Origin: Gemmatimonadota bacterium
GTDB taxonomy: Bacteria; Gemmatimonadota; Gemmatimonadetes; Longimicrobiales; RSA9
Assembly: GCA_018224305.1 (NCBI GenBank)
Contig: JAGTUV010000009.1
Span: 1-34,107, forward strand
Reading direction: 5' to 3'
DNA: 34,107 nucleotides
Part shown: piece after piece, positions 14,258 through 30,637 of the stretch
Layout of the letters: every line of letters starts with the position of its first letter
Position numbering within the stretch: position 1 is the first letter of the stretch
Made by a program: the position numbers and the translations under genes
Notes under the pieces: generated by a model
Told to the model about the DNA's origin: nothing
What the model saw: the letters and a program-made list of their open reading frames with translations, nothing else
Databases searched by the model: none

Positions 14258-14713
14258 TCAGAATCGCTCGCCCTGCGCTTCGCGGAGGTGACTGCCGACC
14301 GGCCGGATGCGCGTCCACATCGCCCAGAAGTACAACGCGGCGCCCGCGATCTGGCCGAGTCCGCCGAGCACTACGATCCATGGCAGAACCGCTACGTCGT
14401 ACCACGCACGCATTGCTTCCGCCACGAATCGGGAGCCGGTGGACACGGCGAGAATCCAGTATGCGGCCTGAATCCGCCCGGGTGAGTAGCGAGTGTCATC
14501 CTTCGGCGCGCGCGGGAACAGCCACAGCGCCACGCCGAAGATCAGAAACATCACGAACCCTACGAACACGGCATGCGCGTGCGCGGACACGAGGTGAGGA
14601 TGCGGCCAGATGCCGAACAGCTCCCGGCGCACGAGCAGCCATCCTCCGAGCGCCAGGCCGGAGAATAGAAACAGAATGCCAGTCTTGATGAATCGCCGGA
14701 CGAGTGTATACAT
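14258..14713 (-). CDS. Small multi-TM heme-copper-oxidase-subunit-I-like protein
   Basis: PHPHLVSAHAHAVFVGFVMFLIFGVALWLFPRAP; four predicted TMs; resembles the 19934..20374 product. Confidence 0.65.
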   Translation of the reverse strand: MYTLVRRFIKTGILFLFSGLALGGWLLVRRELFGIWPHPHLVSAHAHAVFVGFVMFLIFGVALWLFPRAPKDDTRYSPGRIQAAYWILAVSTGSRFVAEAMRAWYDVAVLPWIVVLGGLGQIAGAALYFWAMWTRIRPVGSHLREAQGERF

Positions 14714-14726
14714 GGCTAGTCGACTG

Positions 14727-14763
14727 TCTCGAATGCCGCGGAACTTTGGAGACAGTCCATTAG
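14727..14763. repeat. REP-like inverted repeat (GACTGTCTC ... GAGACAGTC arms)
   Basis: AGTCGACTGTCTCGAATGCCGCGGAACTTTGGAGACAGTCCA; 9-bp arms; another copy of GGACTGTCTCC at about 14162-14172. Confidence 0.6.
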
Positions 14764-15176
14764 TCGTCTGCCTTCGCAGCCTGCTGCCCACCCCGACCGG
14801 ACCCGCCCTGAGCACCGGCCTCGAGCGCGACGGTCAGGAGAAACGCTGCACCCGCCTCGGATTGCACCGTGTGCGGCAGGCCCGCGCCGGCCGACAGCAT
14901 CTCACCAGCAGCGACATCGTGAGATTGCCCGCCGATCGTGAAGCGGATCGACCCATCCAGCGGCTGCACCGTGATCGGTCCGTCCGCGCTGTGCTCCGCC
15001 AGCTCTCCGCCCGGCCCGAGCACCACCAGTGTCACACGCAGCGGTCCGTCCTTGAGCAGAGTACGCGCCGAACGGCCGTGCTTCTGAATGGTCGCCGGGT
15101 CCGCAGTACGCTCACGTTCCTCGTGGAGCTGGAACACCATGACATCGCCGGAGAGCGGGCGCTGGATGGAGGGCAT
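14760..15176 (-). CDS. Cupin-domain protein
   Basis: MPSIQRPLSGDVMVFQLHEERERTADPATIQKHGRSARTLLKDGPLRVTLVVLGPGGELAEHSADGPITVQPLDGSIRFTIGGQSHDVAAGEMLSAGAGLPHTV. Confidence 0.8.
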   Translation of the reverse strand: MPSIQRPLSGDVMVFQLHEERERTADPATIQKHGRSARTLLKDGPLRVTLVVLGPGGELAEHSADGPITVQPLDGSIRFTIGGQSHDVAAGEMLSAGAGLPHTVQSEAGAAFLLTVALEAGAQGGSGRGGQQAAKADD

Positions 15177-16441: not shown

Positions 16442-17398
16442 TCAGTTGCTGCGCCGGATGAACACACGCACGAGATCCGGCTCCTGCTCCCGTACGTCGT
16501 ACGTGAATCCGCGTTCCTCCAGCATCGGCAGCAGGAACTGCGGCACACGCACATTGATCTGAACGAGCGTCGCTCCCGCCGGCAGCTGCTCGAGCGCGGC
16601 CAGCGTGCGCACCATCGGCTCCGGCGGTTCGAGGTCACGAACGTCGATAATCACCACGTCCTGCTCCGCGTCCGGCGCTGCATCGCCACGAGAAAGGTCG
16701 GGTGCTTCCGGAGAGGGCCCGTCGGCTGGAGCCCGGGCGCCGGCCGCGGGGCGGGCGACCGCGTTACCCCCTGGCTCCTGATCGGGCACCGAGGGCTGGG
16801 CATCGACAGCAGGCGGATGAAACCACACACGCCAGTCGTCGTCCGCCAGTCGCTCGGTCCAGTGCTCGAGACCCTGACGCTTCATGACCGCATAGAGCGG
16901 CACCGGCTCGAAGATCGCCCGCACGCAGAGCACACCACCCGCCGGCACCGTTCGCAGTGCTGCCATGATCAGGCTGAAAGGCTCACGTCCGGCACGCAGT
17001 TCGTCGCGCACGTCCAGCTCGATGACATCCTCGGAAGCGACGCGCTCCAGAGCTTCCGGACGCTTACCCGCATTGCTCGACACCACGTCCCCGTCCTCCT
17101 TCGTGCGTGACTCCACGTTCGCCGGTGCGGCGTGTGACTCCACCTTCGCCGGTGCGGCGCGCGACTCCACGCTCACCGGTGCGCCCGACCCATGCGCGTT
17201 CAGCCGAGCCACGAGCTCCTCCGCATTGACACCCGCCACCCGCGCCGCCTGCTCTACCGTCACGAGCCGCGCCATCACTTTCCTCATTCCTGCATGCCGC
17301 AGTCGCTCAAAGGCCGGCGAGAGCGATACGAACACATCGATTAGCGATTCATCGCGCCCGATCACCGTTGACACTCGGTCCGTACGGGAGATCACCAT
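16442..17398 (-). CDS. DUF1858 domain fused to two DUF2249-like domains
   Basis: N-term [52 protein letters not shown] (DUF1858-like); then [57 protein letters not shown] and [54 protein letters not shown]. Confidence 0.8.
17109..17189 (-). repeat. 27-bp in-frame tandem repeat (3 imperfect copies)
   Basis: GACTCCACGTTCGCCGGTGCGGCGTGT unit read directly; encodes [18 protein letters not shown] linker repeats. Confidence 0.9.
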
Positions 17399-17688
17399 GC
17401 CCCCTCCTGGATCATCTCCGGATTCCACGCGGGCTCCCACACCAGATGCGGATGGACTTCCTCGACACCGGGCACTGCGGACACCGCGTTAACAATCGCA
17501 CTCGTGATGTGGCGCTCGAGCGGACAACCGGGCGTCGTCAGCGTGTACGTCACCGTCACCGTGCGCTCGAAGACGTTCACGTCGTAGACCAGGCCGAGCG
17601 TCATGATGTCCAACCCGATTTCCGGGTCTATCACGGTTGCCAGTGCGGCGCACACCGCTGCCTCCTGCTCTTCCGCCTGCGGGATCAT
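17392..17688 (-). CDS. Metal-sulfur cluster assembly factor (DUF59/MIP18-like)
   Basis: 98 aa: [79 protein letters not shown]. Confidence 0.93.
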
Positions 17689-18989
17689 GGTCGCGTTCTC
17701 CACAGTTTCAGCATCTGTGCACTCTCGATCACCACGCCCGTCAGCAGCATGAGTGCGCTGACGCGCGCAGCGACAGGGTATCCGGCGACGATCGCCGCAA
17801 TCATTCCGATCGTTCCCAGCACCAGTGCGCTCACCGCCAGCGTCGCTGCGCGCGTCGAGTACAGCTCCGTGACGAGAGGCACGGGCCGCGTGCCCGCGAG
17901 CGGGCCGAAGCGGTGGTACCACACCAGGAATGGCACGATCTTGTAGTAGTGCGCCGCAACGAAGAGGCTGATACCGAGGAGCACGGCGGCCACGTACGCA
18001 GTTGCGACGCGCGCACTCGCGACCGAAAGCAGTACCGGCGTCGACAGCACCAGTGCGAGGGCCAGAACGGACAGTGCCGCGGCGGCGAGGCGCATCCCCG
18101 GATCCAGCGCAGGACGATGGCGGCGTGCATAGAACGATCGGGCCTGCAACAGGAACGCGGCACAGCCCGCCGCGATCAGCACCGCAGGCGTCCAGTAGCT
18201 CACCAGTCGCGGCGCGTGATGCAGGAACGCGAGCACGCCCGTCCCCGTCGCGATCAGCGCCACGGCCGCCTTCGCAAACCGGTCGCCCGCGCCGTGGCTG
18301 AGCAGGAACATCGGCAGCAGGCGATGGCCGACACCGATCATCACCAGCAGTACCCAGCCGGCGATCGCCACGTGCAGGTGCACGCCCAGCGCGGCGACGC
18401 GTCCCGCACCGAGGTAGCCCCAGCGCAGATTGCCCGTAAGCGCCAGGCCGAGAACCAGCGTGATCATCAGAAAGAATGCAGCGCATGCGAGCGCCCACCA
18501 CGTTACGTCGCGTCGCTTCGATGCGTGCAGTGTCGCGGCCAGATTGCCGACGAAGAGCAGGATGCCCGCGCCGAACGTGGCCGCGCCGGCCAGCATCAGA
18601 ACCGGACGGTACAGCACGAGTCCGATCACGAACGCGGCCAGGCCCGGCACGTACAGCGCGAAGCTCGCGTGCGCCAGCCGCACTGAACGGATCGGCTTCC
18701 CCAGCGCCACCGGCAGGAACTGGTACAGCGCGCCCATGATCGATGTCGTGATCCAGCCCAGCGTGAACAGGTGCGTGACACCCGCGACCCGCGGCGACAG
18801 AAACGCGCCGCCCGCCAGGTCGCCCGCGACCAGAACCACGCCCGCGGCACCAGACAGCAGGAACAGCAGCGCGGCAGCGAAGTGCTCGCCCGGCAGGATG
18901 AACGGCGGCGCGTTCGCGCCCGCCATACCGGGCGCCGCTGTCGGCACAGTCTGCGGTTTCGTGCCGGCGCTCCTCGTGCGCACATCCAT
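17685..18989 (-). CDS. Multi-TM NnrS/heme-copper-oxidase-like protein
   Basis: About 12 TM helices; [85 protein letters not shown]. Confidence 0.7.
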
Positions 18990-19720
18990 TACGCCGCTCC
19001 TCTGCGATACGTGCAGGACGCGTCTCCCGCCGGGATGTAGTTCAGACGCGTCAGCCGCTCGCCCATCAGCTCCCTCACGAACGCCAACTCCGCGCGGCAG
19101 GGAACCCGCGTCACGTCCACCACCTCGCGCAGCGGGCAATGACACAGCCGAAGCTCGGGCTGTTCCGCTCCCTCGTGCGCCAGCGCCATGAACCCCAGTT
19201 CGGAGAGGATCCGGGCCGCCTCCTCCGCCCGGGCCGGACCCTCCAGCCCTGCGACCCGCGTCAGCGCGGCGTCACGCCGCTCGGCGATGTACTCGTCGAA
19301 GAACTCCTCGAGCAGCGCTTCATTTCCAGTCGACACCAGGTGCATGACCAGGCCCCGAAGGACCTCGCCTTCACGACGCGGGAACAGCGACTCCGATGCG
19401 GCCGTCAACGCGTACACCACCTCCGGCCGGCCAGGCCCCGAACGCCGCGTGCCCCGCCGCTCCACCAGGCCCTCCGCCGTCAGCGCCTGCAGATGATGCC
19501 GGACCGTCTCGACATTCAGCCTCGCCTCCTCCGACAGCAGCGGGATCGTCGCCGAGCCCCGACGCTTGAGGCTGTTCACCAGCTCCCGCCGCGTCCCGTT
19601 CAGCCCCGGCGCACTCATGCCCGCCGGGCTCGCCGCCGGCACGCTCGGCCCCAGCGCGCCAGCCGCCAGTGCGCTCAGCGCCGCCTGAACAATCTCTTCC
19701 CGGCCGCCGTTGCGGTCCAT
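18989..19720 (-). CDS. Winged-helix transcriptional regulator with C-terminal Cys motif (SufR-like, putative Fe-S sensor)
   Basis: [64 protein letters not shown]-term [47 protein letters not shown]. Confidence 0.85.
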
Positions 19721-19933: not shown

Positions 19934-20374
19934 ATGGAACCATTCGTCAGGAACTTCATCCGATCGAGCCTGCTGTGGCTGGGCGGCGGCGTATTGCTCG
20001 GGGTGTGGATGGCGGTGTCACCGCAGGCGATCCTCTACCGTCCTGCCCACGTTCATGCGAACCTGCTCGGCTTCGTGAGCATGATGATCTTCGGCGTCGC
20101 ATACCACGTGATTCCGCGATTCACAGGCAGCCCGTTGCGCAGCCGCAGGGTTGCGGTGCTGCATCTGTGGGTGGCGAATGTCGGCCTCGTGGGCCTGGTT
20201 GGCGGCTGGCTGCTGCGGCCATCGATGTGGGAAGCGGGCACGGCAGCGGTGATGACGGGTGGGGTCGTGAGCGCCACCGGCTCGTTCCTGTTCATCGGCA
20301 ACCTGTGGCTGACGCTCGGTCCGGTCCGACGGGCAGCGCGCCCTGGCGTCCTGCACTCTGGACCTGCCGCGTGA
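19934..20374 (+). CDS. Small multi-TM heme-copper-oxidase-subunit-I-like protein
   Basis: AHVHANLLGFVSMMIFGVAYHVIPRFTGSPLRSRRVAVLHLWVANVGLVGLVGGWLL; His-x-His in a TM helix. Confidence 0.7.
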   Translation: MEPFVRNFIRSSLLWLGGGVLLGVWMAVSPQAILYRPAHVHANLLGFVSMMIFGVAYHVIPRFTGSPLRSRRVAVLHLWVANVGLVGLVGGWLLRPSMWEAGTAAVMTGGVVSATGSFLFIGNLWLTLGPVRRAARPGVLHSGPAA

Positions 20375-20971: not shown

Positions 20972-22078
20972 ATGGCCACACTCTCCCCTGCGGCACCGGT
21001 TGCGGTTCGACCGGACTGGCGGCTCGACATCCCCGAAGAGAAGCGGCGTCCCATCCGCGTCTGGCTGTGGAGCATCGCCGCGCTGACGTTCGGTGTGATG
21101 GTCGTCGGAGGAATCACGCGCCTGACGCTGTCCGGGCTGTCGATCGTTTCCTGGGACCCGCTCTTCGGCGTGATACCGCCGCTCAGCGACGCGCAGTGGC
21201 AGGCGACGTTCGAAGCGTACAGGCAGTTCCCGGACTACGACTGGCGAACCGGCATGACACTCGCCGAGTTCAAGTTCATCTTCTTCTGGGAGTATCTGCA
21301 CCGCCTGCTTGCAAGGCTGATCGGATTCGCGTTCCTGATCCCGTTCGTCTGGTTCCTGGCGCGCGGCTACTTCAACCGTGCGCTTACGGGTCGTGCGCTC
21401 GCACTGTTTGCGCTGGGCGGGATGCAGGGCGTCATGGGCTGGTTCATGGTGATGAGCGGACTCGTCGACCGCCCGAGCGTCAGTCATTACCGCCTCGCCG
21501 CACACCTGAGTCTGGCCTTCCTCATCTTCGGCTACGCGCTCTGGCTCGCGCGCGACCTCCGCCTGACGCGGGCACGCGCTGTGGTGGACCCGGGCGTCCA
21601 TCGAATGATGTTACGCGGTCTGGCGCTGCTCGGCGCTGTGACGAGCGTGCAGATCGTATGGGGTGCGTTCGTCGCGGGGCTGCGTGCCGGCAAGTTCTAT
21701 CCGACGTTCCCGCTGATGGGCGGCAGCCTGGTCCCGGCGGAACTGCTTCGTCTCGATCCGTTTACGCGCAACTTCGTCGAGAACCCCGTCGCAGTGCAGT
21801 GGATGCACCGCGTGCTTGGCACGCTGCTGCTCGTCGTCGCAGTCGTCTTTGTCGCGCGCGTGCTCCGTTCCGCTGCTGATGCGCTGTCGCGCCGGCTCGG
21901 CGTCATCGTGCTGAGCCTCATCTCCGTGCAGTATCTGCTCGGTGTTCTGACGCTCGTGTATCTGGTGCCGATCAGCCTCGGTGTGATTCACCAGGGCGTC
22001 GCGCTGGTGATCTTCGGTGCATGGCTGTGGTGGCTGCACCACGTGCGGAACCTCGATGTGCAGGGAAGGGCAGCATGA
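20972..22078 (+). CDS. ctaA: Heme A synthase (COX15/CtaA family)
   Basis: MVVGGITRLTLSGLSIVSWDPLFGVIPPLSDAQWQATFEAYRQFPDY, EFKFIFFWEYLHRLLARLIG, GGMQGVMGWFMVMSGL, HLSLAF. Confidence 0.95.
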   Translation: MATLSPAAPVAVRPDWRLDIPEEKRRPIRVWLWSIAALTFGVMVVGGITRLTLSGLSIVSWDPLFGVIPPLSDAQWQATFEAYRQFPDYDWRTGMTLAEFKFIFFWEYLHRLLARLIGFAFLIPFVWFLARGYFNRALTGRALALFALGGMQGVMGWFMVMSGLVDRPSVSHYRLAAHLSLAFLIFGYALWLARDLRLTRARAVVDPGVHRMMLRGLALLGAVTSVQIVWGAFVAGLRAGKFYPTFPLMGGSLVPAELLRLDPFTRNFVENPVAVQWMHRVLGTLLLVVAVVFVARVLRSAADALSRRLGVIVLSLISVQYLLGVLTLVYLVPISLGVIHQGVALVIFGAWLWWLHHVRNLDVQGRAA

Positions 22079-23436
22079 AAGCGGAACGCACGCCGGATCT
22101 CGCCACCTCCACTCCGTCTGAGGGCAGGCCGGATCTCACCGGCGCAGGTGCGCCATCCGGCAGGCCGGATCTCGCCGGGATCGATTTCGCGCAGTCACCG
22201 TTCCTCGTCATCTGGGAGGTCACGCGCGCATGCGACCTCGCCTGCCTGCACTGCCGCGCGGAAGCGGTGACGAATCGCAATCCGCTGGAGCTGTCGACGG
22301 AGCAGGGGAAGCGCCTCATGGACGACGTGCGCCGGTTCGGCCGGCCTCTGTTCGTCCTCACGGGCGGCGATCCGCTGAAGCGTCCCGACGTTGTCGAACT
22401 CGTCGAGTACGGCGCTTCGATCGGGCTGCGCATGGCGATGACTCCATCCGGCACGCCGCTGATGACCGAACCCGTGCTCCGGGACCTGAAGGCGGCAGGA
22501 CTCTCGCGCCTGGCGGTGAGTCTGGATGGGTCGAGCGCAGACATCCATGACGCGTTCCGGGGGGTCGAGGGGTCGTGGGCCTGGACCATCCGGATGCTGG
22601 AGGTCGCGCGCGAGATCGGGCTCACGACACAGGTCAACACGACGGTCAGCATGCACAACCTCGACGATTTCGACGCGCTGTGCGACCTGATGGTCCAGCT
22701 CGGCATCACGCTCTGGAGCGTGTTCTTCCTCGTGCCGACCGGTCGTGCGAAGTCCGGCGACGTCGCGAGTGCCGACGAATTCGAGAGCGTGTTCCATCGC
22801 ATGTATGACCTGTCACAGACAGCGCCGTTCGACATCAAGAGCACGGCCGGACCGCAGTATCGGCGTGTGATCCTCCAGCGCCAGGTCGCTGAACGCCGCG
22901 CGGGCGATCGCACGGCCGCTGTAACTCCGCTGACGGCAGGTGTCGGCTTTTCGCTCGCTGACGGCGTCGGCCGGGCCAAGGGCGTGAACGACGGCGATGG
23001 CTTCGTCTTCGTGAGCCACGTGGGCGCAATATACCCTTCCGGGTTTCTCCCGCTCGCGGCCGGCAACGTGCGCAAGGACGACATCGTGGATGTGTACCGC
23101 AATGCGCCGCTGTTCGTGGAGTTGCGCGACCGCACACGGCTGAAGGGGAAATGCGGCGTCTGCGAGTACCGCGATGTGTGTGGTGGAAGCCGGGCTCGCG
23201 CGTATGCCGTGTCCGGTGACTACATGGAGTCCGAGCCATTCTGTGCGCACGTGCCAGCACGCTGGCAGCGCATGGTCGATGCGGGCGAGGCCGAGCCGGT
23301 GGCGGAGTACTTCGAACGCCGCGGGCTGACTGATCGGTCGCTGCCGGTCATTGATGACGGTGTTCCGGCGCAGGGACGGGCGGCGCGCGGTCAACCGCCG
23401 GCTGGTGGTCAGATGCCGTCCGCGACGGCGACTTGA
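22075..23436 (+). CDS. Radical SAM/SPASM protein (heme d1/AhbD-like, TIGR04053-type)
   Basis: WEVTRACDLACLHCRAEA (CxxxCxxC), LTGGDPLKRPDV, C-term CGVCEYRDVCGGSRARAYAVSGDYMESEPFC. Confidence 0.88.
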   Translation: MKAERTPDLATSTPSEGRPDLTGAGAPSGRPDLAGIDFAQSPFLVIWEVTRACDLACLHCRAEAVTNRNPLELSTEQGKRLMDDVRRFGRPLFVLTGGDPLKRPDVVELVEYGASIGLRMAMTPSGTPLMTEPVLRDLKAAGLSRLAVSLDGSSADIHDAFRGVEGSWAWTIRMLEVAREIGLTTQVNTTVSMHNLDDFDALCDLMVQLGITLWSVFFLVPTGRAKSGDVASADEFESVFHRMYDLSQTAPFDIKSTAGPQYRRVILQRQVAERRAGDRTAAVTPLTAGVGFSLADGVGRAKGVNDGDGFVFVSHVGAIYPSGFLPLAAGNVRKDDIVDVYRNAPLFVELRDRTRLKGKCGVCEYRDVCGGSRARAYAVSGDYMESEPFCAHVPARWQRMVDAGEAEPVAEYFERRGLTDRSLPVIDDGVPAQGRAARGQPPAGGQMPSATAT

Positions 23437-24870: not shown

Positions 24871-25772
24871 CAGAGACGACCCACGAGGTTAACGATCGCC
24901 GCCGAGCCCCCCGTAGTCGCGTACGCGATCCGGCCATCCCGATCGATGATGTAGACCAGTGACGGATGTGTGATCTCGCCCGTGGTCATATCTCTCACAC
25001 GCGGGACCTCCCATGCGTCGAGCGCGCCCTCCACATCATCGACCGATCCACCGAGCACCCATGCATCGGCCGCCGGAAGTCCCCACGACTTCGCCATCGC
25101 CGGGAGCCGCGAGGGCGTATCGCGCCACGGATCCAGCGTGACGACCAGCACCGTGACGTCCATGCCGCCGGCCGCCAGATCGTACTGCGCCGTGAGCACG
25201 TGCTTCACGACGAGCGGGCATATCGTCTCGCAGTGTGCGTACGCGAACGTCACGAGCACCGGTGCTCCGCGGAACTGCGCCAGCTCCCGCGTAACACCAT
25301 CGTGCGCCTGTAGTGCGAGAGCCGGCGCACGACGGTCGAGTCTCGGGTAGGTGGATGGAGGAAGCTCGCCGTCCGCATCCGGTATGAATGCCAGTGCGCG
25401 CGCCTGCTGCACTCTCGCGCCCGCACCAATGACCAGCACCATGCAGCCGATCGCCAGTGCGCCCAGTGTTGCCGACAGAGCCCGCGACGTACGGGCACGT
25501 TCCGCGAGCCGGCGCACGCCGCCCCACCACGCGATCAGCAGAATGATGAGCATGCCGAGCGGGCCGAAGATCAGGCCGATCCAGCCGCCCGCATCCGGCA
25601 GTCCGCTCTCGGTCACGCCGAAGCACACGTAGCGTGTGCGCTCGAGCCACACGGGCCCATCCTGCACCGGCCAGAAGGCCAGTGCCCACCACGCACTCGT
25701 AATGACGAACAGTGCGATCAGTCCGGTCATCACGATTCGCGCTTCCCGGTCCGGTGCAGGCGGGTGCGTCAT
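24870..25772 (-). CDS. SCO1/SenC-family copper chaperone with N-terminal TM segments
   Basis: FRGAPVLVTFAYAHCETICPLVVKHVLTAQYDL (CxxxC), VTLDPWRDTPSRLPAMAKSWGL, ITHPSLVYIIDRDGRIAY. Confidence 0.92.
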   Translation of the reverse strand: MTHPPAPDREARIVMTGLIALFVITSAWWALAFWPVQDGPVWLERTRYVCFGVTESGLPDAGGWIGLIFGPLGMLIILLIAWWGGVRRLAERARTSRALSATLGALAIGCMVLVIGAGARVQQARALAFIPDADGELPPSTYPRLDRRAPALALQAHDGVTRELAQFRGAPVLVTFAYAHCETICPLVVKHVLTAQYDLAAGGMDVTVLVVTLDPWRDTPSRLPAMAKSWGLPAADAWVLGGSVDDVEGALDAWEVPRVRDMTTGEITHPSLVYIIDRDGRIAYATTGGSAAIVNLVGRL

Positions 25773-27526
25773 CAGCCGATCTTCCACACGAAGGACAGCA
25801 GCTTCCAGTTCGCGAAGTAGTAGATCGCGAACGCGGCGAGGAACACGGCGACGAGAATCATGGTGCCGGGTGCCTGACCCAGGCGTCCCGTCGGCAGGTT
25901 CGCCTCATCTGCCACGGTCACGGGACGCGGCGGGCGAGTGATACCCTGTGGCAGACCCTTCGCGCCGGGTACGCGGTCCGCTTCCGTGAACGGCTTGCCG
26001 AAGAACACCGACCACACGGTAATCAGGATGTAGAGGCCGCCGCCCAAAGCCGCAACGAGGCCGCCGAGCGCCATGATCCCCATCAGCGCGTCGACCGCGG
26101 GATGGAATGCCTGCTCGAACGGTGCGCCCGTGAAGCCGATATCCCAGTGCCGGCGCGGTACGCCGAAGCCGCCCGAGAACGACATGAAGATCGAGAAGAC
26201 CAGCATGCCGCCCGCGAACATGTACGGCTGTATTTGCGCGAGCCGCCAGAACGCCACTTTCTTGCGGAAAATCAGCGGGATCAGGTAGTACGTCAGGCCC
26301 ATGAACGCCATCGTGGTGCCGCTCACTACCGTTGCGTGGAAGTGGCCGGGCACGCGGAGCGTGTTGTGTACGACAATGTTGATCTGCTCCGTACCGATCG
26401 TGACTCCCGTGATTCCACCGACGAAGCCGAACACGACGATCGACAGTGCGAGCGAACTGAAGCCCGGGTCACCCCATGGCGCTCGCTTCACCCAGCCGAA
26501 CAGGCCCTGCGATGCACCGCGAAGCCGCTGGCCGATCTCCACGCCCGCCGGCACCGTAAACCCGTGCAGCATGCTCGCCAGTACCGCCATGTACATGAAG
26601 TAGCTGGTGTTCACCACCTTCCACGACGAGCTGAAGCCGGGGTCCACCAGCAGATGGTGTGCGGAGGCCATCGAGATGAACAGGATGTAGAGCACGAACG
26701 CCGTGCGGCTGATCTTCTCGCTCAGTACCACGGATCCGACCGTGAGCGCGCCCAGCAGGTACCAGATCGCAACCATCGCCGCGACGTTGATCTGCTGCGA
26801 CGAGTGGCCGAGCGCCCACCAGAGCATACGATACACCTGCGGATCGACGCTCATCCAGCCGATCGACCAGAAGAACGTCGGGATGTACGTGGCCGCCCCG
26901 TGCAGCAGCGTGATCACGGCGATGATGGCCGCCGCAACAGCGCCGTACGTGACCAGCGGCAGCGATCCCTCGTACGTCTTCTCGCGCTTCGCGATCACGA
27001 GCGTCGCGAAGAACTGGAAGCACACCAGCAGTGCGCCCACCGCGAAAAAGATGATGCCCAGGTAGTACAGCGGGTCCGCGCGCAGCGGGATGTAGGATGT
27101 CATCAGAACGTCGGCCTTGCCGGTCCAGATCATCCACTCGCACAGCGTTGCTCCCAGCGTCATCAGCCCGAAGTTGAACCACCCCAGCTTCGGCGCGGCG
27201 ATCCTGCTGTTGAGCATCGGGCCCGCCGCGAAATACAGGACGGCCATCTCGAAGAAGATGATGAAGAAGATCAGCATCGTGAGTCCGTGCGCCGTCAGCA
27301 CCCGATAGAACATTACGGGATCCAGCAGGTGCACCGCCTGCCAGCGCGTGAGCAGTATCAGGATGGCGCTGACGCCGCCGATGAGCAGGGCCACGGTCGC
27401 GGCCACGGCATTCGCCTTGATGAGTCGTTCCGCCGGACGATGCAGCTTCAGCCCGGTTACCTCGCAGGTGCGGAACACCTCGCCGGGGCCGCTTCCACCC
27501 TGCGGCGTCTCGAGTACCGTTGCCAT
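25772..27526 (-). CDS. Heme-copper oxidoreductase subunit I lacking the active-site Tyr (candidate NO reductase)
   Basis: Six His ligands present: H80 (TAHGLTM), H241 (GHSSQQ), H290-H291 (SAHHLL), H395/H397 (GHFHATV); Q245 occupies the HPEVY tyrosine position. Confidence 0.93.
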   Translation of the reverse strand: MATVLETPQGGSGPGEVFRTCEVTGLKLHRPAERLIKANAVAATVALLIGGVSAILILLTRWQAVHLLDPVMFYRVLTAHGLTMLIFFIIFFEMAVLYFAAGPMLNSRIAAPKLGWFNFGLMTLGATLCEWMIWTGKADVLMTSYIPLRADPLYYLGIIFFAVGALLVCFQFFATLVIAKREKTYEGSLPLVTYGAVAAAIIAVITLLHGAATYIPTFFWSIGWMSVDPQVYRMLWWALGHSSQQINVAAMVAIWYLLGALTVGSVVLSEKISRTAFVLYILFISMASAHHLLVDPGFSSSWKVVNTSYFMYMAVLASMLHGFTVPAGVEIGQRLRGASQGLFGWVKRAPWGDPGFSSLALSIVVFGFVGGITGVTIGTEQINIVVHNTLRVPGHFHATVVSGTTMAFMGLTYYLIPLIFRKKVAFWRLAQIQPYMFAGGMLVFSIFMSFSGGFGVPRRHWDIGFTGAPFEQAFHPAVDALMGIMALGGLVAALGGGLYILITVWSVFFGKPFTEADRVPGAKGLPQGITRPPRPVTVADEANLPTGRLGQAPGTMILVAVFLAAFAIYYFANWKLLSFVWKIG

Positions 27527-28143
27527 CAGTTGACCTCCAGCGCCTGCGCGGCTTCGCCGGGCATTGTTCCGTCCTCATTCGTCACGAGTACCTTGCCCAG
27601 CATCAGGTGATGGCCTACACCGCAGAATTCGTTACAGATCACCCCGAAGTCGCCCGCTTCGGTCGGCACGATCTTCAGTCCATAATCGTATCCGGGGACG
27701 ATCTGGAAATTGATGTTGACGGGATACAGCGAGAAGCCGTGGTTCACGTCCGTGGACGACAGATGCAGCGTGTACTCGGAGCCCTTCCGCAGCTTGAGTA
27801 TCGGGTACCAGCTCCACATGCGTCCGAGCATGTACACGTCGCTGCCCGGAGGCGGTTCGACAACCGGGAACCCGTTCATGGTGCCCACCTGGTAGTCCGC
27901 TACGAACTGATTGACGCGCGCCTCGAACGCGGCTGGCTCCACCCTGCTTCGGATGCCCGACGCGTTCTGTCCGCCCTTCCAGTGCCAGAGCGGCATCATC
28001 GCGAACAGCACCATGCACCACGCGAACGCGATCCCGAACCACACCTTCTCGGAACGGTGTGCGGGCACCCACCAGCGCCCCTTCGGCGAGACCATGCCGG
28101 TGTTCATTGGGCGCCGGTCTCCGTCCTGCGCCGGGGCGGTCAT
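27526..28143 (-). CDS. CuA-containing subunit II
   Basis: VNHGFSLYPVNINFQIVPGYDYGLKIVPTEAGDFGVICNEFCGVGHHLMLGKVLV has the CuA motif CxxxCxxxHxxM; N-terminal TM. Confidence 0.95.
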   Translation of the reverse strand: MTAPAQDGDRRPMNTGMVSPKGRWWVPAHRSEKVWFGIAFAWCMVLFAMMPLWHWKGGQNASGIRSRVEPAAFEARVNQFVADYQVGTMNGFPVVEPPPGSDVYMLGRMWSWYPILKLRKGSEYTLHLSSTDVNHGFSLYPVNINFQIVPGYDYGLKIVPTEAGDFGVICNEFCGVGHHLMLGKVLVTNEDGTMPGEAAQALEVN

Positions 28144-28319
28144 GGCAGCTCCGCCGTCGGCATGCTCGTGATCTCCCACAGGCCCCAGCCCGTGTAGATC
28201 ACGCCCATGATCACAATCCCCGCGATCATCAGAAGCAGCCAGTTGTCGTAGAGCCGCTGGCCGAGCGGCTCCTTCGCTGGGTCGTTGTCGTATGCATCAG
28301 GTGTGCGATCACTGCTCAT
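28140..28319 (-). CDS. 59-aa single-TM protein, putative accessory subunit of the heme-copper complex
   Basis: MSSDRTPDAYDNDPAKEPLGQRLYDNWLLLMIAGIVIMGVIYTGWGLWEITSMPTAELP; ATGA overlap with the subunit II gene. Confidence 0.75.
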   Translation of the reverse strand: MSSDRTPDAYDNDPAKEPLGQRLYDNWLLLMIAGIVIMGVIYTGWGLWEITSMPTAELP

Positions 28320-28414
28320 GGTTTGCTCCGGTGACTGAAGTCGGCCCGGCATAAGTGGAGTACAGCATGTAGATATGAGGATATACCGGGCAGCGGCGGC
28401 GGCCATAGTCGGAT

Positions 28415-28445
28415 TCCTGAACCTTTATCAGGATATTCCCCACAA
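28415..28445. promoter_or_regulatory. Putative operator: TCCTGA-N7-TCAGGA followed by TTCCCCACAA
   Basis: Direct reading in the 28320-28526 divergent intergenic region; 10-bp TTCCCCACAA shared with 19806-19815. Confidence 0.5.
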
Positions 28446-30074: not shown

Positions 30075-30637
30075 GTGCAGCGCCCATGAACCCGGAACGA
30101 GGCCGTGCGGTGCGCACCCGAATCGTCCGCTGGCTCGCGCCCGTGCTCGTCACTGCCGTCATGACCGTGGGCATCGGCTGGCTTGCGCGCGCACCCTATC
30201 AGCCACCAGGCTCCGACAGCGCGACACTGCGACTGTCGTGGCGGTTGCGCGCGCCCGTCGCGGAGACGTGCAGGCCTCGTACGCAGGCCGAGCTCGATGC
30301 GCTCCCCGTGCATATGCGTACGCCCGAAGTCTGTCAGAGCCGTAGCGCGGCGTACGACCTCATTGTGCAGGTGGACGCGCGGACTGCGGACACCTCGAGG
30401 GTGCTGCAGGGCGGCGCGAAGGGCGACCGCCCGCTCTTTGTCCTGAAGGAACTGTCGCTCGAACCCGGACCGCATCATGTCCGCGTCCGCTTCGCCTCCG
30501 GTGCCGGCTTGCCGGCGGAAGAGTCTGTCGTTCTGGCGCTCGACACCGTGCTGCACATGCATGCTGGCACAGTTGATCTCGTCACTCTCGGTCCCGACGG
30601 CCGCACGTTGATTGTGCGGCAGTCGACACAGCCATGA
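30071..30637 (+). CDS. Hypothetical single-TM protein
   Basis: N-terminal TM (IVRWLAPVLVTAVMTVGIGWLA) and ETCRPRTQAELDALPVHMRTPEVC motif; GTGA overlap with the fusion gene. Confidence 0.7.
   Translation: MSAAPMNPERGRAVRTRIVRWLAPVLVTAVMTVGIGWLARAPYQPPGSDSATLRLSWRLRAPVAETCRPRTQAELDALPVHMRTPEVCQSRSAAYDLIVQVDARTADTSRVLQGGAKGDRPLFVLKELSLEPGPHHVRVRFASGAGLPAEESVVLALDTVLHMHAGTVDLVTLGPDGRTLIVRQSTQP

Follow-up and report, generated by a model that had tools for sequence, protein, structure and literature searches.

A probable eNOR-family nitric oxide reductase in a Gemmatimonadota bacterium and its cytochrome b/iron-sulfur neighbor

The eNORs are a known but little studied class of heme-copper nitric oxide reductases that are related to the B-family O2 reductases and have been biochemically characterized (PMC11388526). 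Members of the family carry a glutamine in place of the active-site tyrosine of O2 reductases, have a CuA-containing subunit II encoded directly upstream of subunit I, show a relation to B-type oxidases, and often have a NirK gene nearby (Hemp and Gennis, 2008; Murali et al., 2024; PMC8756737); in Ardenticatena, for example, eNOR lies in an operon with NirK (PMC4653789). A published comparison that covers cNOR/qNOR, sNOR, CuANOR, gNOR, and eNOR, with nNOR outside it, distinguishes these families by the residue at the active-site position: this is Tyr in O2 reductases, Glu in cNOR/qNOR, Asn in sNOR and CuANOR, Asp in gNOR, and Gln in eNOR alone (PMC8756737, Table A4).

The window analyzed here, i.e., the whole 34,107-nucleotide stretch of contig JAGTUV010000009.1 (assembly GCA_018224305.1, Gemmatimonadota bacterium), encodes a heme-copper subunit I, P0002, that shares this family profile. 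The subgroup to which it belongs differs from the family as described by an additional gene encoding a cytochrome b with two [4Fe-4S] motifs and an FlpD domain, and by a small membrane subunit. P0002 is very likely subunit I of a CuA-containing nitric oxide reductase of the eNOR family, and thus a new member of this class; its sequence predicts that it reduces NO (2 NO + 2 e- + 2 H+ -> N2O + H2O). The product of eNOR, N2O, is a greenhouse gas. Because annotation mostly labels eNOR-type genes as cytochrome c oxidase subunit I, organisms that reduce NO, and hence produce N2O, go unrecognized. According to a survey from 2025 in which eNOR was included, nir and nosZ still occur without nor in 13% of those Gemmatimonadota genomes that have denitrification genes (PMC12569097).

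Subunit I and its family placement

25772..27526, minus strand: very probable eNOR subunit I (P0002), 584 aa, ATG start; PF00115 219.7 bits
26792..26794, minus strand: codon CAG of Gln245, the eNOR-diagnostic residue, read from the sequence

All six metal-ligating histidines claimed in the original prediction are present in P0002 and align with the ligands of A- and B-type oxidases. H80 and H397 serve the low-spin heme, H395 the active-site heme, and H241, H290, and H291 CuB. Helix VI reads GHSSQQIN, and its +4 residue, the place of the cross-linked tyrosine in O2 reductases, is Gln245, encoded at 26794-26792 as had been predicted. This glutamine is no sequencing accident, since Q244, Q245, and N247 are fixed in 101/101 Gln-family members; B-type oxidases have V, Y, and W at these positions (16/16). 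Nine polar positions are fixed throughout the 101 Gln-family sequences and absent from all 16 B-type sequences, namely E93, Q244, Q245, N247, Y280, N306, Y309, H321, and S362. The invariant glutamates of the Gln family are E93 (helix II), which is never Glu in B-type oxidases, and E330, which is common to them. A further glutamate, E380 of the motif TIGTEQIN, had been assigned to helix VIII, but the AlphaFold model (pLDDT 87, pTM 0.89; helices VIII, IX, and X at 300-335, 354-378, and 391-420) places this motif (376-383) in the loop between helices IX and X. Since some sequences of the Gln family have Tyr, Pro, Met, or Gln in place of E380, this residue is not diagnostic.

The Thermus ba3 oxidases are the nearest solved structures to P0002, both by sequence and by fold. 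These B-family cytochrome c oxidases share with the P0002 system the fold, the six histidine ligands, and a CuA subunit; they differ in that Tyr237, Val236, Trp239, and Thr312 (in what we take to be the Thermus numbering) are Gln245, Gln244, Asn247, and His321 in P0002. Against the NCBIfam equivalog models for A-type and quinol oxidases, P0002 scores far below the cut-offs.

Phylogenetic analysis placed P0002 in a clade of Gln-bearing sequences (support 100/99; 95 in a wider tree), apart from the Tyr-bearing A- and B-type O2 reductases. Membership in or near the CuA-containing nitric oxide reductases had been proposed without naming a family; the tree and Gln245 bear this out and point to eNOR. 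Membership is read from residue, tree, and gene context: P0002 has Gln245, falls in the Gln clade, and thereby matches the one family to which the published table gives Gln. Its system combines a CuA subunit with Gln245, and so has neither the Glu of cNOR/qNOR, the Asn of sNOR and CuANOR (bNOR), nor the Asp of gNOR. The Rhodothermus marinus eNOR is reportedly a NO reductase; P0002 is linked to this enzyme through the diagnostic residue and published descriptions, with the R. marinus sequence outside the tree.

Other identities were considered and rejected. P0002 does not qualify as a B-family O2 reductase, lacking the helix VI tyrosine and branching outside the B-type sequences. C-type (cbb3) oxidases carry a relocated tyrosine 6 residues before the helix VII histidine pair. 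The original prediction had named such a tyrosine as evidence against its reading; the corresponding P0002 residue is Ile284, and the system has CuA in place of cytochrome c subunits. A cNOR/qNOR identity was set aside because the residue is Gln rather than Glu and the partner is a CuA subunit rather than a cytochrome c subunit or a fused quinol domain. The source genome encodes a cNOR of its own (norCB), which belongs to the same superfamily and has the same proposed reaction but differs from the P0002 system in its active-site Glu, its cytochrome c subunit with NorQ/NorD, and its lack of CuA.

Homologues of P0002 at 65% identity or more occur in about a fifth of the sampled Gemmatimonadota genomes. 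Matches in this phylum fell into two tiers: those at 65-94% identity carry the Gln motif, while those at about 30-35% carry Tyr and were rejected as eNORs, being B-type oxidases. A scan of named genomes, with the family alignment as query, yielded 565 relatives; the best 80 of these 565 represent about 15 phyla, among them Gemmatimonadota, Pseudomonadota, Acidobacteriota, Myxococcota, Bdellovibrionota, Rokuibacteriota, Aquificota, and Calditrichota. Defluviimonas sp. SAOS-178 is an example of a relative that can be cultivated and carries this cluster. Plasmids of Thermus and Thermomicrobium encode more distant Gln-family members with the motif GHGAQQVNL. Haloarchaeal and Geobacillus plasmid matches carry Tyr and were rejected as eNOR or CuANOR; they are B-type oxidases.

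The Gln-family alignment also showed a cysteine, Cys21, in 100/101 sequences, within an FRTCPxTGL motif before helix I (P0002 residues 18-29, FRTCEVTGLKLH) that is missing from B-type oxidases. In two Thermus thermophilus plasmid sequences (L161, L162) and one from Aquificota (L148), the helix X motif GHFH is GHFK, with Lys at the position of H397; this suggests His/Lys ligation of the low-spin heme in these thermophile eNORs, which would be unusual for heme-copper enzymes. Some subunit I open frames (L072, L073, L074, and relatives) end at about residue 510 and have the last helix in a separate downstream frame, which was matched in genomes G152, G087, G072, and G104 and reflects either a frameshift or a split C-terminus.

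Partner subunits, NO context, and proposed function

27526..28179, minus strand: subunit II (P0003), one TM helix and a CuA cupredoxin domain; ligands H147, C182, C186, H190, M193
28140..28406, minus strand: small single-TM subunit, start codon uncertain; no family match, one TM segment
24870..25787, minus strand: SCO-type copper chaperone; PF02630 78.9 bits
24001..24870, minus strand: CtaB/CyoE-like protoheme farnesyltransferase (heme O synthase); homologues in eNOR clusters
20972..22078, plus strand: heme A synthase CtaA-like protein; NF045570 283 bits, below the model cut-off of 550

The genes around P0002 encode a CuA subunit and assembly factors. All five CuA ligands of P0003 are kept in 100/100 homologues, as is Glu44, which forms an invariant Glu44-x-x-Trp47 motif at the start of the TM helix. 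Glu44 presumably resembles the glutamate at the K-path entrance of ba3, sitting where we take Thermus Glu-II-15 to sit. A single proton channel of K type belongs to the eNOR profile; candidate residues for such a path continue into P0002, where S318 and Y256 are kept and the ba3 Thr312 is replaced by the invariant His321. Of 86 loci, 72 have a gene for a small single-TM protein upstream of the one for subunit II. The SCO gene, which presumably serves CuA loading, adjoins subunit I in 68 of the 86, and the CtaB homologues of loci L163 and L164 are annotated as heme o synthase.

These features are consistent with a mechanism in which electrons would enter at CuA of subunit II and pass to the low-spin heme (H80/H397), and from there to the site formed by the second heme (H395) and CuB (H241, H290, H291), where two NO molecules would be joined. 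O2 reductases split the O-O bond with the help of a tyrosine, whose place Gln245 takes. The likely source of protons would be the cytoplasm, via a K-type path in modified form that comprises Glu44 of subunit II and H321, S318, and Y256 of subunit I.

The 3.57 Mb source genome encodes Tyr-bearing A-type and B-type oxidases, a norC-norB-norQ-norD cluster, and a NirK above the curated cut-off; no match to NosZ was found in it. Among 300 genomes of the phylum, counted without correction for relatedness, NirK was present in 20 of 68 genomes with eNOR and 23 of 232 without (odds ratio 3.8, p = 2e-4), and NosZ in 34 of 68 and 69 of 232, respectively (p = 3e-3). In several loci, eNOR has a NirK-like gene no more than about 7 kb away. 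Near eNOR, the Thermus plasmids encode a NirK-like copper protein (155 bits against the NirK model, short of that model's cut-off) as well as a TIGR04053 radical SAM protein, an Rrf2 regulator, and a DUF542 protein. Given that NirK exceeds the cut-off in only 20 of the 68 eNOR genomes, many must take NO from elsewhere or use another substrate.

The role of NO reduction in the cell may differ from a respiratory step. Because a cNOR already serves denitrification in the source genome, a second NO reductase is not required, and eNOR might act mainly in detoxification or under low O2. The norCBQD cluster, the lack of a NosZ match in the source genome, the many eNOR genomes of the phylum without NirK, and the nearby genes for an Fe-S stress-type regulator (SufR-like) and a DUF2249 protein all favor this possibility. 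Conversely, Glu44 of subunit II (100/100) and the helix VIII path are kept, suggesting charge coupling, and CuA with a full set of assembly genes would be costly for mere detoxification; on balance, we consider a chiefly detoxifying role rather unlikely.

A far less probable reading is that P0002 descends from B-type enzymes as an O2 reductase whose tyrosine has moved, as in C-type oxidases, to Y280 in helix VII or Y309 in helix VIII. Both tyrosines occur in every one of the 101 Gln-family members and in none of the 16 B-type oxidases, the fold is nearest to ba3, and SCO, CtaA, and CtaB are encoded nearby as for oxidases. Yet Ile284 occupies the C-type tyrosine position, the genome already encodes Tyr-bearing oxidases of A- and B-type, the context is related to NirK and NO, and the R. 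marinus eNOR is said to be a NO reductase.

The cytochrome b/iron-sulfur protein P0004

28527..30074, plus strand: cytochrome b with two [4Fe-4S] motifs and an FlpD/MvhD domain (P0004), putative redox partner; divergently transcribed
30086..30637, plus strand: membrane-anchored protein of no known family, probable periplasmic domain; fused to the P0004 homologue in other phyla

The less expected part of this locus, and one worth following, is the P0004-type gene that accompanies eNOR in many phyla. P0004 has six helices with four invariant histidines (H79, H93, H180, H194), and all eight of its [4Fe-4S] cysteines are invariant or nearly so. It models as one protein (pLDDT 92), the membrane part of which matches the cytochrome b of bc1/b6 complexes. 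Its four N-terminal helices and its two bis-His heme sites correspond to those of cytochrome b6/bc1, from which it differs by an added ferredoxin of cytoplasmic type and an FlpD module; the eNOR cluster showed no Rieske protein. P0004 residues 288-492 match the C-terminal Fd-MvhD module of HdrA2 (569-773, 62.8 bits), but P0004 has no flavin domain, is joined to a cytochrome b, and belongs to a family in which the fourth FlpD cysteine is Gly. One of the four FlpD cysteines being replaced, that cluster may be lost in the window's family.

Of 80 named loci, 67 have a P0004 homologue beside eNOR; most of the remaining 13 are truncated by the end of a contig. The arrangement is kept in 19/20 neighborhoods of the phylum; in Pseudomonadota, the homologue is downstream of eNOR in the same direction. 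Full-length homologues were found in 65 of 68 phylum genomes with eNOR, compared to 4 of 232 without (300 genomes, p = 6e-57, uncorrected for relatedness). Among the three eNOR genomes without P0004, two have partial eNOR matches and one carries a divergent eNOR (L058). The product of 30086-30637 occurs as a C-terminal fusion on the P0004 homologue in 12 loci (E 1.5e-12 to 2.6e-41), which ties the two proteins together physically.

No cytochrome b/FeS gene was found within 8-14 kb of the Thermus and Thermomicrobium eNORs, nor near the L058 eNOR, indicating that some eNORs can do without the module. The corresponding subunit I sequences (Thermus L161, Thermomicrobium L163, and L058) group together, apart from the sampled partner-bearing sequences (support 93/79). 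It is very doubtful that the window's subgroup forms a new nitric oxide reductase family distinct from eNOR, marked by a GHSSQQIN...GTEQIN signature and the cytochrome b/FeS partner: the partner-less sequences stand apart and lack GTEQIN, but the diagnostic Gln and the fixed residues are common to all of these sequences, which form one 100/99 clade, and the 43-50% identity across this clade is normal within a family.

Within the eNOR family, then, the chances seem evenly balanced that P0004 is a dedicated electron-transfer partner of this subgroup. Its FeS/FlpD part is probably on the cytoplasmic side, with the cytochrome b in the membrane, and the module could carry electrons from quinol or a cytosolic flavoprotein towards the CuA side. 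More tentatively, the subgroup may use a dedicated P0004-type protein and a periplasmic domain, sometimes fused, that would connect quinone or low-potential cytosolic donors with NO reduction. Such a route, if true, would be an electron path not known for any NO reductase. Our literature search, with the main eNOR paper (Murali et al., 2024) outside its reach, returned no description of an association between P0004 and eNOR. If the P0004-type protein is the electron partner, it would provide a simple gene marker for this subgroup, as well as a testable answer on how eNOR is supplied with electrons and whether NO reduction is coupled to energy conservation.

Other genes and sites of the neighborhood

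22021..23436, plus strand: TIGR04053 radical SAM/SPASM protein; 472.6 bits, cut-off 395
16442..17440, minus strand: DUF1858/DUF2249 protein, a context gene; homologue in eNOR clusters L110 and L136

A search for the FNR/DNR-type site TTGAT-N4-ATCAA gave 17 matches against 20 expected, none of them convincing. The divergent promoter region contains a 17-bp palindrome, CCTGAACCTTTATCAGG (28416-28432), that two of three close relatives (L059, L060) retain. Five further exact copies exist in the genome; both of those that could be located lie inside coding sequence (Rex, CcdA), and thus no regulon is evident.

A TIGR04053 gene is found near a NirK-like gene and eNOR in both Thermus and a Rokubacteria locus (L136). 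The latter encodes, in order, a DUF2249 protein, a HCO-like protein, the TIGR04053 radical SAM protein, a NirK-like protein, subunit II, eNOR, a second HCO-like protein, CtaB, SCO, and a cytochrome b/FeS protein. DUF2249, HCO-like, radical SAM, CtaB, SCO, and cytochrome b/FeS genes are common to this locus and the window.

Flanked by genes for a PaaD-like FeS-assembly protein and a SufR-like regulator, a polytopic membrane protein of about 436-486 aa is encoded in the window (17685-19145, minus strand) that has no Pfam or NCBIfam match and is possibly NnrS-like; homologues occur in eNOR clusters L110 and L136. Two short proteins (14258-14815, minus strand; 19934-20374, plus strand) align with COX1 solely in its C-terminal third (310-397 of 436). 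Each is encoded beside a cupin gene, and both are also present near eNOR in L076.

A second HCO-like protein is encoded near eNOR at L136:9718-11139 (plus), L143:16210-17577 (plus), L141:13323-14684 (minus), L149:5939-7342 (plus), and in five other loci. It keeps the helix X histidine pair (AHYH) and the helix VI GHxxQ motif, and both CuB histidines of helix VII are missing. By its sequence this protein appears to be a CuB-less heme-copper relative, of a kind that, to our knowledge, has not been described.
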